DNA from: a virus
IMG/VR virus record: IMGVR_UViG_3300020477_000168
Location: 1 to 20,677 of that record
Length of the DNA: 20,677 nt
Strand: one strand, 5' to 3'
This document shows, piece by piece, positions 6,515 to 18,085 of this stretch; within the stretch, counting starts at the first letter, position 1, and every line of letters starts with the position of its first letter. The notes under the pieces are model-generated. The model worked only from the letters and a program-made list of their open reading frames with translations. It was not told the DNA's origin and did not search any database. A program made the translations under genes and the position numbers.

Positions 6515-7596
6515 TGCCTTTAGTAGAATCAGACTTTTTAGCAGACCAGGTAGATATTGAAGCTACTGTTGATAATAACCAGTTTTTAACTATTAGTAAA
6601 ATATTATACAAAGCAGCCGTAAATGAACCACGATCTGTAACTCTACAAATATCAGATAGAGAATCATTACAAAAGGCACGTTTGGGAGGTAAATTAATAA
6701 TGACTGTGGGCAGAGGTGATGCCATTCGCAATTTGGCGTTTGAAGGAATTATTAAGATTATTAAACCAGGAAACCAAATACATTCTATTACTGCTGTAGA
6801 TAGGATTACATCTTTAGCAACATCAGAGTATGTTAATTATAAACCTGAAGATATAGAAGGGCAGGATCTTTATTTTTTAATTAGAGATGCAGCCGATTAC
6901 CAGGATATTGATGTATCTGATGCGTTGGGTGGTTCAGGCATAATAGCTAATTCGGAAATGAATTTAACGGGTTTACATAGACGGAAAGACTTTATTGATA
7001 AATGTATGGAATACATGATCAAAACTTATGATGATGACTTCCATGAAAAGACTGATTTTTTAAGGTATAATTATGCTATACGTTCTGGTAATAAGTTTGA
7101 TATATTTTTACCAGATTATAAAAACAAATCAGCAAAAGGCGTTCTAAAAATATCTGAAGATGATGCAAATATAACTGGCGAAGGTATTGTTGCTCAGATT
7201 GATACTACCAGGTTATACAATTCTGTAACTGCAATTAGTAAGAGTGATTCTTCTATATTTAAAACAGTAAACAATGACAGTAGTATTAATCAATACGGAC
7301 CTAATTCAACGACAATTACATTAGATACTGAAAACAAATCATTGCTTGAAGACGCAGCGTATGAGATTATACAGACTTATTCAACGCCAACATTTAGTTA
7401 TACTATTGCAATGCACAATGCAGATTGGCTTGGGTTAGGCGATTTAGTACAGTTAGATGTCCCTATGTTAGAGAAAGATATAATCCTGCCTGTGGTAGCC
7501 TATGAGACTGAGATAGGCGACAGTATGTTTACTAAGCTAACGGTGGGAGAGCCTACGCTAACATTGAAAGACTTTGTAAGACAACTACAACTTTAG
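6514..7596 (+). CDS. Putative baseplate hub / tail-associated protein
   Basis: A 360-residue protein directly after the fibre/distal-tail gene, in the position of the gp27/Tal-like hub that closes the tail tip. The sequence shows alternating strands and helices, with phrases expected of hub proteins: a strand pair around FEGIIKIIKPGNQIHSITAV, a central helical domain, and a C-terminal strand region (WLGLGDLVQLDVPMLEKDI) that resembles the second tube-like domain. No peptidase or lysozyme motif is seen, so the tip seems to lack a recognisable cell wall enzyme. The stop codon overlaps the stop codon of the convergent methylase gene by three bases. The call rests on order and general fold. Confidence 0.6.
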   Translation: MPLVESDFLADQVDIEATVDNNQFLTISKILYKAAVNEPRSVTLQISDRESLQKARLGGKLIMTVGRGDAIRNLAFEGIIKIIKPGNQIHSITAVDRITSLATSEYVNYKPEDIEGQDLYFLIRDAADYQDIDVSDALGGSGIIANSEMNLTGLHRRKDFIDKCMEYMIKTYDDDFHEKTDFLRYNYAIRSGNKFDIFLPDYKNKSAKGVLKISEDDANITGEGIVAQIDTTRLYNSVTAISKSDSSIFKTVNNDSSINQYGPNSTTITLDTENKSLLEDAAYEIIQTYSTPTFSYTIAMHNADWLGLGDLVQLDVPMLEKDIILPVVAYETEIGDSMFTKLTVGEPTLTLKDFVRQLQL

Positions 7597-8345
7597 AATA
7601 GTTTTGTTTGTTGCTTATCAGATTCTTCCCACGGATTTAACTTAAGCTCTTCAATCTTATAGTACACTCTTGCTATGTTTCTCCATTCTCTTACAAACAC
7701 AGGTCTCAATGTTTTTTTGTTCTGAGCTGCAATTATATCAACTTGTTTCATTAGATTTCTAAGATTAAATTCATCTAAACTATTAATATTATAAAATCTT
7801 TTTACATAATCTAATCGTTTCCATCGTTTGTGTCCCAATTCTCCATAAGTAATAATTAATCCTTTCTTAGCAAGTTTCAATGATAAATCGAAACATTCGT
7901 ATGCGGATCCGAAGGGGTCTAAGTCAATCAGGTCAAACTTCTTTCCATCATAATACATTTTGCATAATAGTTTTAAAGCAGGTAGATTAAAATCACAATT
8001 AGTAAACTCTTTGTTTTTATCATTAGTAGTTAAAATTATATCTTGTAGCAATCGTTCTTTGTAATTTTTGTAAAACGATTCTTCTCCAGCATATAAATCT
8101 AAAACGTTTGTAGGTTGAATATTAAGTAAATACTTTGTGTTAGTTTTGTATTTGTCTTTACGATGTTTATCATTATATGTAGTGTTACTTTTGTTTAATC
8201 TCTTAAGTTTTATTTGGATAGACACTTCAGTTCTGTCAAGTTCTTTGGCTATATCTTTGTTAGATAATCCTTTAGCTTTTAATTCTTTAAGAGATTTAAT
8301 ATCTTCTTCTTCCCATTTGCGTGGTTTACTTTTTGTAACGTGCAT
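7593..8345 (-). CDS. Trm1-like SAM methyltransferase with N-terminal helix-turn-helix
   Basis: A 250-residue protein. I chose the ATG at 8345 (MHVTKSKPRKWEEED) because it overlaps the stop of the upstream mini-gene as TAATG; a start 8 codons earlier (8369, GTG-type) is possible. Residues about 9-50 form a helix-turn-helix of SANT/GcrA style (KWEEEDIKSLKELKAKGLSN, DIAKELDRTEVSIQIKLKRL). Residues about 79-250 are a Rossmann methylase: motif I VLDLYAGEESF and motif IV DLIDLDPFGSA (143-146 DPFG). DPFG is the signature of Trm1, which dimethylates N2 of guanine 26 in tRNA. Trm1 is usually near 380 residues and lacks an N-terminal HTH, so DNA may be the substrate here. It is last in the minus-strand operon with a DNA methylase. 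The substrate is inferred, not shown. Confidence 0.7.
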   Translation of the reverse strand: MHVTKSKPRKWEEEDIKSLKELKAKGLSNKDIAKELDRTEVSIQIKLKRLNKSNTTYNDKHRKDKYKTNTKYLLNIQPTNVLDLYAGEESFYKNYKERLLQDIILTTNDKNKEFTNCDFNLPALKLLCKMYYDGKKFDLIDLDPFGSAYECFDLSLKLAKKGLIITYGELGHKRWKRLDYVKRFYNINSLDEFNLRNLMKQVDIIAAQNKKTLRPVFVREWRNIARVYYKIEELKLNPWEESDKQQTKLF

Positions 8346-8440
8346 TAATTCACCTTGTCCCACCAACAATCAAAACATAAACCAAATTGTTTTTTTAATG
8401 CAGATTCTTTAACATAAAAATTACATTTTTTACAATGCAT
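8345..8440 (-). CDS. 31-residue zinc-ribbon mini-protein
   Basis: A very small gene between the two methylases, coupled on both sides by TAATG overlaps: its ATG overlaps the stop of the DNA methylase and its stop overlaps the start of the Trm1-like gene. It encodes 31 residues, MHCKKCNFYVKES and then GLCFDCWWDKVN, with Cys3-x2-Cys6 and Cys22-x2-Cys25, enough to hold one zinc ion. The tight double overlap and intact cysteine pairs make it a real gene despite its size. It may be an accessory or DNA/RNA-contacting partner of the methylases; the role is unknown. Confidence 0.75.
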   Translation of the reverse strand: MHCKKCNFYVKESALKKQFGLCFDCWWDKVN

Positions 8441-13642: not shown

Positions 13643-13797
13643 TGTTTAGAATTTGTGATAGCGAAACAGGAGAAGTCCTATTTGAAACTACAGATATACA
13701 GAAACTATCGGAATATCTTTACGATAAACAAATGAAATACATTACAGTATCAAGAAATCAGGAGTATATTGACAAATGTCTGATATCGAAGGATTAG
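13642..13797 (+). CDS. Hypothetical 51-residue protein
   Basis: Encodes MFRICDSETGEVLFETTDIQ and KLSEYLYDKQMKYITVSRNQ followed by EYIDKCLISKD. It starts at ATG 13642, overlapping the methylase stop as TAATG. It seems to be a small beta-alpha-beta fold. It overlaps the start of the large terminase gene by 22 bases, which supports coupled translation. No function is assigned. Confidence 0.65.
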   Translation: MFRICDSETGEVLFETTDIQKLSEYLYDKQMKYITVSRNQEYIDKCLISKD

Positions 13798-15245
13798 ATA
13801 AATTTACGCAACATCTTCTTGCTAAAGGTTTGTTAGAGCAGGATCTTGAATTTATTGATTTTGCTGATGATGTATTAGGCGACTTTATGAGGCAAGAGCC
13901 AAGCGATTTTGTTCCATTAGCAGATATGCATACTAAATGGTTAGATACAATTAATTCAGATAAACATTACGTAGGAATAATGTGTGCAAGAGGACATTTG
14001 AAAACTACGTTTACTTTAACTTACTGTGCATATATGATGCACAAATATCCTAACTACCGAGCTTTGTATGTATCTGCAACATTAGACCAGGCAATAGATA
14101 AGATGGAGCAGTTTGAAGAATTGTGTAAAAGGTCTTGGAGATTAAATGGTTACATTAAAGGTAAAGAAGATGGAGGGTCTTGGCGTAAAGGAGCTAAGTA
14201 TTTTAGCAATGGCAGTAGGGTTAGGGCTGCATCTATTGGTAAAGCTCTCGAAGGGCCACACGTTCATCTAATTATTATGGATGATATTTTAGAAGAATTT
14301 GCACGAATGCCTGATGATAAGGTTATACATTATATTAAAAGAGTTGTTATGCCTATGCGATTACCTTCAGGTAAAATACTATTGATTGGAACACAGAAGA
14401 GAATAGGAGATGCAACGGATTGGATTAGGCAAAGTTCTGACTGGGCGCACGTTTGGCATCCTGCTTTAAACAAAGAAGGAAAACCAAGATGGCCTGAGTA
14501 TTGGACTATGGATCGATTAGAAGCCGAAAGACATTCGATGGGAACCAGAGCTTTTGAGTCTGAGTATTTGTTGAATCCACTCGATCCCGAAACTGCTGTA
14601 ATTCCTTGGGGAGTAATCGAACCTTGCCTGGACAAAGAGATGGGATTTGGAGAACCTTTGGAAGATAGTGATATTGTTATTGGAGTAGATTTGGCAGTAG
14701 GATTAGATACTGCAAACGATGAAACTGCTTATTGTGTATTGTCTTATGACAGATCGACAAAAATGCGTCATGTGATTTATCAGTGGTGTGGTAAAGTAAA
14801 AGCAGAAGGAGCAGGATGGTTAACAGCTCAGGTAAACAATCTGGTATCATTGGCAGAGAAATACAAACCATCTATGATTATGGTAGAAACAAATGGTTTT
14901 CAAAGATTAGTAGCTCACGCAGCAAAAGACCTGGCATCTTTACCAGTTAAAGGCCATAGGACAGGTTCTGAAAAGCATCACGCACAGATAGGCATACCAA
15001 GGATTGCTTTGGCCTTAGAACAGGGTCGTTACATAATCCCTTGGAATAAGGCAGTAAACAAATCGGGACCGCTTGGTTCACGCAAATTAGTAGAAGGTCT
15101 TTCCAGGTTAATGTGGGGTAAGAATGGTAAGCTTGATGGACACACTTCTGATGCCGTAATCTCTTTATGGATGTGTGAACTTGCGATTCAGGAAATAGAT
15201 AAGCGAGGTCTCAAGATTACCTCTTGGGATAGTAGCGTTATATAA
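13776..15245 (+). CDS. terL: Terminase large subunit
   Basis: A 489-residue packaging motor. The ATPase has a Walker A of the RGHxKT type (CARGHLKTT, 70-78), a Walker B (LIIMDD, 165-170) followed by Glu residues, and a motif C LIGTQKR at 203-209. The nuclease domain starts with GVDLAVG (Asp305), continues with MIMVETNGFQ (Glu371), and ends with LDGHTSDAV, the RNase H-like acidic triad. It cuts concatemeric DNA and pumps it into the head. Length is typical. It overlaps the 51-residue gene upstream and is the last gene of its transcription unit; a hairpin with a T-run follows. Confidence 0.95.
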   Translation: MSDIEGLDKFTQHLLAKGLLEQDLEFIDFADDVLGDFMRQEPSDFVPLADMHTKWLDTINSDKHYVGIMCARGHLKTTFTLTYCAYMMHKYPNYRALYVSATLDQAIDKMEQFEELCKRSWRLNGYIKGKEDGGSWRKGAKYFSNGSRVRAASIGKALEGPHVHLIIMDDILEEFARMPDDKVIHYIKRVVMPMRLPSGKILLIGTQKRIGDATDWIRQSSDWAHVWHPALNKEGKPRWPEYWTMDRLEAERHSMGTRAFESEYLLNPLDPETAVIPWGVIEPCLDKEMGFGEPLEDSDIVIGVDLAVGLDTANDETAYCVLSYDRSTKMRHVIYQWCGKVKAEGAGWLTAQVNNLVSLAEKYKPSMIMVETNGFQRLVAHAAKDLASLPVKGHRTGSEKHHAQIGIPRIALALEQGRYIIPWNKAVNKSGPLGSRKLVEGLSRLMWGKNGKLDGHTSDAVISLWMCELAIQEIDKRGLKITSWDSSVI

Positions 15246-15260
15246 TCCTTTAGCGGAAGC

Positions 15261-15289
15261 TCTACATACTGTAGAAATTGCACATTTTT
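15261..15289 (+). terminator. Hairpin plus T-run after the terminase gene
   Basis: TCTACA (15261-15266) and TGTAGA (15270-15275) form a perfect 6-bp stem with a TAC loop, followed 9 bases later by TTTTTC at about 15285-15290 and CTTTCCC. Archaeal termination mainly needs the T-run. It ends the terminase operon and separates it from the RNA promoter at 15316. Confidence 0.5.
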
Positions 15290-15315
15290 CCTTTCCCAAG
15301 CACAAATCTTCAGGC

Positions 15316-15350
15316 TAAAGCTTATATATGCCTACCAAACTGTAGTATTG
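15316..15350 (+). promoter_or_regulatory. Archaeal-type promoter of the structured RNA
   Basis: TAAAGCTTATATATGCCTACC at 15316-15336 is almost identical to the other two strong boxes (minus strand 9539 and 16757). The 34-base spacing puts the predicted start at G15350, exactly the first base of the hairpin GTTGC-TTAG-GCAAC. This argues that a dedicated RNA starts here. Confidence 0.8.
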
Positions 15351-15951
15351 TTGCTTAGGCAACTTGGTTGGAAACAACCTGCAAACAGGTGGCGACACTT
15401 ATGACTGCAGGCTTCTTACCAATGAGAGTCAAACGCACAAACCGTCAAGCTGTTTTTAGCGAGAGGTCAAGCTCTAACGCTGCCAACAGTTGCAGGGGTG
15501 AAATCCCATGCACTAACTTGTCATGTTGAACGGCCTCTTGTGTAGACTTACGCCTTTGGAGAACTTCTTTCAGCTCACAAGGTTGAAAGAAGGGTCAAGG
15601 GCAAGTATTGTCTACGAGAGGAGCTACCAGAGTAGGTTTGTGCCTGACACGTTGCAATAGCAGGGTAGCAGAAGTCTACAAACTTACTGTTGGACTATGG
15701 AAGCTTCAAAAATTAGTAACTTTTGAAAACAACATAGATTAGAAAACAGTGACTTCGTAAAGCGGCTCGTGACATTGAGAGGGCATAGTTTGATGCTGCA
15801 TCTCAGGCACCCCGTAGTGGCGACCAATAAGTCCACGCTGCTCTGCTTAGCATTACAGTAACAACGGGTTTTCTTTCCCGTTGCAAACCTTCTCTTGCGA
15901 GGTGTTACAAATGGCAAGAAGGGTTTGGCCTTACCTTTCCCCAAAAGGCCA
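15350..15951 (+). ncRNA. Large, highly structured noncoding RNA of about 600 nt
   Basis: No coding frame fits this 700-base gap on the plus strand. Two of its 60-base stretches counted by hand (15481-15540 and 15781-15840) have 30 and 34 G+C, against an AT-rich genome. Helices seen: GTTGC/GCAAC at the 5' end; GGTTG-GAAA-CAACC (15366-15379); TGACT/AGTCA (15402/15427); a 9-bp long-range GCACAAACC (15435) with GGTTTGTGC (15635); AGCTGTT/AACAGTT (15448/15485) enclosing AGCGAGAG/CTCT-AA-CGCT; TGCA-GGGG hairpin (15491-15512); CCTCT-GTAGAC (15534-15547) with GTCTAC-AGAGG (15610-15621); inside it GCCTTTGG (15552) with TCAAGGGC (15595) and an 11-bp hairpin (15564-15574/15582-15592); TTCAAAA/TTTTGAA (15705/15721); TGAGA-GCAT/ATGC-TCTCA (15776-15805); CAACGGG/CCCGTTG (15862/15877); CTTGC/GCAAG with CAAACC/GGTTTG (15884-15927); TGGCCTT/AAGGCCA (15926/15945). 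Not RNase P, SRP or tRNA by motif; family unknown. The 3' end is uncertain: it could run into the next gene. Confidence 0.85.
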
Positions 15952-15972
15952 CAATAAAAAAAGGTGATAAAA

Positions 15973-16233
15973 TTGCCCCGAAGTAAAAACTACGACAACA
16001 AAGGAAAATCGCATCTACTTCATGTAGGTGTAAATAAAGAGAAAGAATACATCCTTAATTGGTTTAGGAATGAATATGAAAATACCAATGAAGGAATATG
16101 GATTGCATTGGCAAATCATATAGAAGAGATAGACAAGTACCGATCCGAAGTTGGTTATGTTCCCTCCTGGAAAAAGAGAGAGAAGATGACTGCTCAGGAT
16201 AAGTTTTTTGCACTTGTAGAGAAGTGGGGGTGA
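15973..16233 (+). CDS. Hypothetical 86-residue RHH-like protein with TTG start
   Basis: I chose a TTG start at 15973 because AAAGGTGAT (15960-15968), complementary to the 16S rRNA end, sits 4 bases upstream; the frame is also open from a GTG at 15964, which lies inside that site. The protein begins MPRSKNYDNKGKSHLLHVGV, then KEKEYILNWFRNEYENTNEG and IWIALANHIEEIDKYR. A strand plus two helices suggests an RHH-type fold, then a charged C-terminus (SWKKREKMTAQDKFFALVEK). It is the first gene after the structured RNA, which could act as its very long leader or be cleaved from it. It ends just before the next gene. Confidence 0.6.
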   Translation: MPRSKNYDNKGKSHLLHVGVNKEKEYILNWFRNEYENTNEGIWIALANHIEEIDKYRSEVGYVPSWKKREKMTAQDKFFALVEKWG

Positions 16234-17821: not shown

Positions 17822-17905
17822 ACCGATGACAGACCTTTACACCAATTTTCACTCTTTTGGCCAAGCTCATGTTCCAAAACAAGTCATAAGGGGTCTGTCG
17901 TCTTA
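17822..17905 (+). promoter_or_regulatory. Structured 5' leader of the head operon
   Basis: GACAGACC (17828-17835) pairs perfectly with GGTCTGTC (17892-17899), an 8-bp stem closing a 56-base loop that contains TTTTGG (17855-17860) / CCAAAA (17874-17879). The stem ends 6 bases before the ATG at 17906 and there is no obvious ribosome site. It could control translation of the RHH gene or bind its product. Confidence 0.6.
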
Positions 17906-18085
17906 ATGGCTCGACTCGAATTGAAAGGCATTGACAACAGAGTTCGAGAAGATGTTAAAGTATTAGCTAAAACGCACGGAGTCACTGTCGCTAAATTCTT
18001 AGAGCCTGCGATTAAAAACTACATATATCAAGCCGATAATAGAGAAAGGCTTATTAGAGCAAAGAGGTCTGACCCAGACTGGTAG
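17906..18085 (+). CDS. Small ribbon-helix-helix protein at the head of the portal operon
   Basis: A 59-residue protein: MARLELKGIDNRVREDVKVL, then AKTHGVTVAKFLEPAIKNYI and a basic tail (NRERLIRAKRSDPDW). A strand (RLELKGI), helix A (NRVREDVKVLAKTHG), the V-T-V turn and helix B (AKFLEPAIKNYI) match the RHH fold. It ends one base before the portal ATG and is translated first in the unit. Likely binds the inverted repeats around it and controls head gene expression; inference. Confidence 0.75.
   Translation: MARLELKGIDNRVREDVKVLAKTHGVTVAKFLEPAIKNYIYQADNRERLIRAKRSDPDW
18066..18080 (+). repeat. Small inverted repeat GGTCTG-ACC-CAGACT before the portal start
   Basis: GGTCTG (18066-18071), ACC, CAGACT (18075-18080), with one G-T closing pair. 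It repeats the half-site GGTCTG/CAGACC of the leader stem at 17828-17899 and lies 6 bases before the portal ATG, inside the RHH gene. Confidence 0.45.

Follow-up and report, generated by a model that had tools for sequence, protein, structure and literature searches.

What kind of element lies behind the terminase gene of the virus recorded in IMG/VR as IMGVR_UViG_3300020477_000168? The record is 20.7 kb long (20,677 nt; this whole stretch of DNA is called the window below), and an initial annotation had read the non-coding gap downstream of its terminase gene as a single large ornate RNA. We collected 59 terminase relatives, to which pattern and profile searches added L061, L066, L072 and L128. 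These relatives did not support the single RNA: they contain independent modules that are shuffled, duplicated, exchanged and sometimes absent. The gap appears to be an array of separate folded RNA modules and not one RNA of one conserved architecture. Judging from the sequences, we are highly confident of this anatomy, that is, of a locus that is structured, modular, exchangeable, dispensable and non-coding. Its features in the window are as follows.

13776-15245: terminase gene, immediately 5' of the non-coding gap
15320-15329, + strand: archaeal TATA-like box GCTTATATAT, about 26 nt 5' of the first base of module A
15348-15422, + strand: module A (5' module), a hairpin (GTTGC-TTAG-GCAAC) followed by a bulged stem whose cap is AGGTG-GCGA-CACTT
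15428-15650, + strand: cargo module C, a basal stem of GUCA/UGAC plus GCACAAACC/GGUUUGUGC closing a multibranched fold (z-score -4.9)
15435-15443 with 15636-15644, + strand: 9-bp long-range helix GCACAAACC/GGTTTGTGC of the minimum free energy (MFE) fold
Around 15564-15595, + strand: long hairpin of the MFE fold, with further hairpins up to the array end
15660-15846, + strand: cargo module G, whose closing helix here is (A)GCAG../..CTGCT
15852-15859, + strand: linker word ATTACAGT
15856-15952, + strand: module F (3' module), an apparent double H-type pseudoknot, with P4 TCTTGC/GCAAGA and P5 crossing P6 GGCCTT/AAGGCC
15964-16233, + strand: 89-aa open reading frame (ORF) of unknown family, directly 3' of the array, starting 11 nt after module F

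Across the relatives, the gap from the terminase gene to the next shared gene spans 39 to 1502 nt, and about 20 related virus records carry a mosaic of interchangeable structured modules at the array site. Cutting the arrays at blocks shared between viruses gave about 20 modules of 75-500 nt (A, A', B, C, D, E, F, G, H, I, J, K, L, M, N, O, P, Q, R, S and T), around half of which occur in at least two viruses. The boundaries of E, M, N, P, Q, R, S and T, each from one virus, are provisional. The modules are arranged as follows.

Window: A-C-G-F
L061: A-B-C-D-E-F-F-F
L011: A-B-T-H-F
L022: A-B-K-F
L007: A-H-D
L008: A-N-J-S-K
L060: A-B-J-D
L066: A-H-G-F-F
L032: A-I-I-O-F-F'
L017: A-B-Q-F
L013: A-B-P
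L003: A-R-I-J
L072 (5' end cut): L-G-M-D-F
L009: A'-K
L015: A'-F
L025 (cut): A'-A-B
L128: A-C-J-H

Module A (A' in three records) leads every array whose 5' end is visible, and F is terminal whenever it is present. The linker word or a variant of it recurs at module junctions in the relatives; part of it belongs to the outer ends of the modules themselves (CAGTAAC in F; GTCA in C, D and K), and it is absent at some junctions. The module catalogue was found nowhere else in 0.8 Mb of examined loci, and a pattern search with module G added no further virus. Matches outside the group (L077-L081, L083-L100) to the boundary-word pattern ATTACAGTCAWACGCA or the module start CATACGCAAAC.. were dismissed as chance matches within genes.

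Compensatory changes, for which the initial annotation had proposed to examine homologues, were present in modules A, H and F and more weakly in C. Among eight distinct homologues of module A, 99.5% of cells were paired and both sides had changed in 8 of 24 pairs (16 cells); none of 500 shuffles reached the cell count or the covariation score, and sliding the partner destroyed the signal. Module H showed two-sided change in 15 of its 51 pairs. For module F, 17 copies in relatives gave 270 canonical cells of 272 across P4 to P6, the segments being set by hand. RNAalifold without pseudoknots explained little of this module; the hand-set pseudoknot model explains it. In this model P5 crosses P6, and P4 crosses its flanking helices, so that module F looks like two H-type pseudoknots. 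L004 has a P4 with every position replaced (CTCAAG/CTTGAG), and the evidence for P4 comes mainly from this divergent copy. Homologues of module C lie at L061:316-554 and L128:2212-2453, and with three sequences only, two-sided change was seen in 10 of 73 consensus pairs. Many of the pairs break in L128 because one subdomain is swapped there; the basal stem and the outer hairpins are kept. Copies of module G (homologues in L066 and L072) vary little, with one clear two-sided change inside, and the closing helix differs, reading GGTAGGG/CCCTACC in the relatives.

The lack of a credible coding frame was borne out, as positions 15246-15963 hold no plausible ORF on the + strand. An antisense ORF of 86 aa (15684-15944, starting within module F) was rejected as a gene: its start is not common to the relatives, and its G-module portion, although open there, has changes that mostly alter amino acids. 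Folding of the + strand of 15346-15952 gave an MFE of -219.4 kcal/mol (z-score -5.8; none of 20 shuffles as good), against a z-score of only -1.9 for the - strand. The fold contains the helices listed at the outset by the initial annotation, namely the 9-bp long-range helix, the long hairpin and the hairpins to the end. Its helix between CTGTAGTA (15340) and ATTACAG (15852) was discarded as unconserved (CTAAAGT and CTATAGT in relatives), and the CTGTAGTA partner falls upstream of the expected RNA start. The reported G+C excess stood in part: values of 0.43-0.46 in the gap compare with mostly 0.30-0.42 elsewhere, but some coding stretches equally reach 0.45. One-sided variants on the + strand comprised 138 G-U cells versus 2 A-C cells, a count that is partly circular, the structure having been predicted on that strand; these numbers agree, within the model, with transcription of the + strand.

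At the gathering score, Rfam returned no match in the window and 11 relatives, and at a permissive E of up to 10 just unrelated chance matches; neither GOLLD, ROOL, RNase P, SRP, tmRNA, tRNA nor another family was matched, as had been supposed. ARAGORN and Rfam detected no complete tRNA or tmRNA in the window and relatives, isolated T arms matching the tRNA/tmRNA models weakly. A scan for bacterial promoters and terminators gave nothing above chance.

The archaeal TATA-like box precedes module A at equal spacing in the relatives, and also precedes apparently leaderless genes of these viruses. Because of its fixed distance before both, we expect the RNA to start near 15346-15348. Of the promoter-defined start proposed earlier, the archaeal-type box is thus retained, but the expected start lies about 30 nt after the proposed 15316. 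The promoter block of the array also recurs 5' of small, apparently leaderless genes with a common start (MSKNNSTTK..), at L012:7783, L032:1836 and 3122, L009:7049, L015:4063 and L017:4333, as though promoter and start together formed one cassette that is reused in front of variable small ORFs.

Exchange of the modules can be seen by comparison with the genes around them. Module H shares 97% identity between L007 and L128, and module B 99% between L022 and L061, while the terminase or portal DNA of the same viruses is 73-80% identical. As the modules are far more alike than this DNA, the cargo modules move between viruses. The terminase tree requires at least five presence/absence changes of the RNA. 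L018 (nothing at the site) and L019 (ORF plus F) have near-identical terminases and different site content, and the sister terminases L005 and L009 likewise differ. Many relatives have only a promoter-bearing spacer of 39-44 nt at the site. The RNA locus is dispensable, because close relatives have this spacer or a small gene instead. L012 and L019 carry a small MSKNNSTTK..-type ORF in place of the RNA cargo, with module F kept behind it.

A second site is occupied in L128, where the array is flanked by a 112-aa ORF and the portal gene; projected onto the window, this site is about 2.5 kb away from the first. The window itself has a conserved imperfect hairpin at 17822-17907 (CGATGACAGACC../..GGTCTGTCGTC; GATGACAAG../..CTTGTCATC in relatives), 5' of a small gene upstream of the portal gene. 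This hairpin is kept in about 25 relatives, and the RNA array stands in its stead in L128. In L007, the gap from the 112-aa ORF to the portal gene contains about five tandem A-rich repeats of around 50 nt each, with GATCTACTGTAAAAAAA.

Modules C, D, K, L and O, whose interiors are unrelated, share the basal stem GUCA-[WAC]-GC.../...GC-[Y, 1-4 nt]-UGRC. One strand carries a 3-nt bulge, UAC or AAC; opposite are 1-4 mostly pyrimidine nucleotides, followed by UGAC or UGGC. The exception is one copy of D (L061/L072), which deviates at the outer pairs. Hairpins resembling T arms, with a stem of at least 5 bp, numbered 6 in 11 kb of arrays, whereas 387 kb of other sequence from these viruses had 2. 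The six are those of J in four viruses, which are homologous copies, and two in L; the T arm of O is weak. D-arm words occur in module L and in the J copy of L128. Neither of the window modules C and G has a canonical T arm. The YrlA model scored 24.7 bits on module L (L072:22-71), against a cut-off of 69 and over the T/D-arm part only. L, the sole matching module, has the permuted T-arm-then-D-arm order of YrlA; no YrlA match was found in the window. Judged by the cut-off, membership in the Y RNA family is not supported. Because the same search also gives matches in 13 of 14 control genomes, we read the match as tRNA-like and not as a Y RNA.

The gene setting points to an archaeal virus. Besides the terminase, a portal, a minor head protein and further proteins are identifiable in the window. 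Among named phages, only archaeal viruses match the portal, namely tailed viruses of Haloarcula and one Methanofastidiosa virus. For the terminase, the best matches over most of the protein are the haloarchaeal phiH/PhiCh1 at about 24%. The TATA boxes of the virus are of archaeal type. On account of these matches and boxes, an archaeal host is likely, not proven, and the description as an archaeal-type tailed virus can be kept. In GTDB genomes, neither the terminase profile found a relative nor the module A pattern a match, and among named phages no relative was detected at the DNA level, apart from a chance 28-nt match. On the - strand, 7593-8369 encodes a viral protein in which an N-terminal helix-turn-helix is combined with a TRM domain (PF02005; 31.5 bits, which exceeds the Pfam cut-off) and which is similar to tRNA G26 methyltransferases.

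What might such an array do? We tentatively favour an array of cassettes, each a structured non-coding RNA, that occupies a variable accessory site. The whole array would be transcribed as one RNA from its own promoter. Modules A and F may stabilise or define the transcript ends, with F blocking 3'-to-5' decay, and the cargo modules would act separately. The basal stem of C, D, K, L and O could serve one RNA-binding protein as a shared docking stem, and the variable interior, including the tRNA-like arms of J, L and weakly O, would then be the effector part. The likeliest role would be to interfere with a factor that the host uses in RNA handling or defence, either as a decoy or by redirecting it, and an arms race would drive the turnover of the modules. 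We infer this role mainly because the turnover resembles that of accessory conflict genes. Its fuller form, a pool of at least about 20 RNA cassettes between fixed 5' and 3' modules, some on a docking stem or mimicking tRNA and serving as weapons or shields in virus–host conflict, is conceivable and somewhat more speculative. Several points weigh against the proposal. Eight modules (E, M, N, P, Q, R, S and T) come from one virus each, and the stand-alone fold z-scores of several modules are unremarkable (for example J -0.8, L -0.8, B -0.8, Q 0.1). No TROVE/Ro60 gene was found in 18 partial virus records.

Other readings start from the same arrangement. That every module is self-closed by its own terminal helix, with a similar word between modules, would also fit a small RNA operon, in which a polycistronic precursor is cut at the ATTACAGT linkers into separate trans-acting RNAs, each with its own target; yet the linker is partly module edge and missing from some junctions, and no processing site is known. 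We consider such an operon unlikely, if worth keeping in view. The 89-aa ORF suggests a different role, in which F, and perhaps the rest, is a modular 5' leader regulating this ORF in cis. F lies 11 nt upstream in the window, and in many relatives, including some without cargo (L023, L053, L012 and L019), it also stands before this ORF. However, in L061, L072 and L032 a T run and a new promoter, and not this ORF, come after the copies of F; in L007 the ORF is present but F is not; and the leader would leave the shuffling of cargo unexplained; we find it rather improbable. Only slightly less probable are true Y RNAs of the YrlA kind that bind a host Ro60/Rsr protein. The permuted T-arm/D-arm match of module L speaks for them, albeit below the cut-off, as does the 3-nt bulge opposite a short pyrimidine bulge, a likeness to the vertebrate Ro site in shape only; the matches in control genomes, the restriction to L and the missing TROVE gene speak against them.

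The remaining two readings fare worse. The very high recombination, and modules with common ends, could mark a hot spot at the DNA level whose inverted repeats merely resemble RNA folds. The strong + strand folding bias, the tolerance of G-U and not of A-C, the archaeal promoter at a fixed distance and the covariation of interior helices make this very improbable. A packaging or virion RNA (pRNA-like) working with the adjacent terminase would explain the position of the array. However, terminases about 85-90% identical in protein sequence occur in relatives with no RNA there, so that the RNA is not conserved beside the terminase as in a pRNA; in L128 the array is elsewhere, and the cargo is unconserved. 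This idea, to which we give hardly any credence, is largely refuted by the array-free relatives, unless the RNA lies in their missing parts.

To our knowledge, nearly all the rapidly exchanged accessory cargo described from viruses consists of proteins. If the cassette array is correct, it would give cassette arrays a counterpart in RNA, with unrelated structured RNAs in a fixed grammar. About 20 RNA families without a described relative would be gained, together with a direct route to asking what large structured phage RNAs are for. The common basal stem and the tRNA-like arms are a concrete handle for finding a binding protein. We found no RNA array of this kind described in the open-access literature, which does not prove that no such paper exists.

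The closest comparison, already drawn by the initial annotation, is with GOLLD and ROOL, large structured RNAs of phages and prophages whose function is unknown; ROOL is dispensable, and GOLLD has a conserved 3' part, a less conserved 5' part and a linker that can carry tRNAs (PMC12286853). Size, phage setting and the unknown function are alike. The likeness does not extend to sequence, Rfam match or a single architecture: GOLLD and ROOL are single families, whereas here many unrelated modules are recombined between fixed ends in an archaeal-type virus. YrlA (RF02553) consists of a basal stem and a tRNA-like domain (PMC8394870), and the Ro site of vertebrates combines a bulged C on one strand with a 3-nt bulge on the other (PMC4726728). 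The array modules resemble YrlA in modularity, closing basal stem and tRNA-like domain, with the permuted arm order in L, but they are longer, lie in a tandem mixed array, score below the family cut-off and come from viruses in which no TROVE gene was found. Viral tRNA arrays, such as the 36 tRNA genes of the virus HGTV-1 (PMC8651126), likewise place several small structured RNAs in one genome stretch, and some of our modules have T and D arms; the modules differ in their size of 75-500 nt and in containing no detected tRNA. With the accessory and anti-defence hot spots of phages, finally, the locus shares a fixed site, exchangeable cargo and absence from close relatives. It differs from them in that the cargo is structured RNA instead of protein, with a putative effector role.
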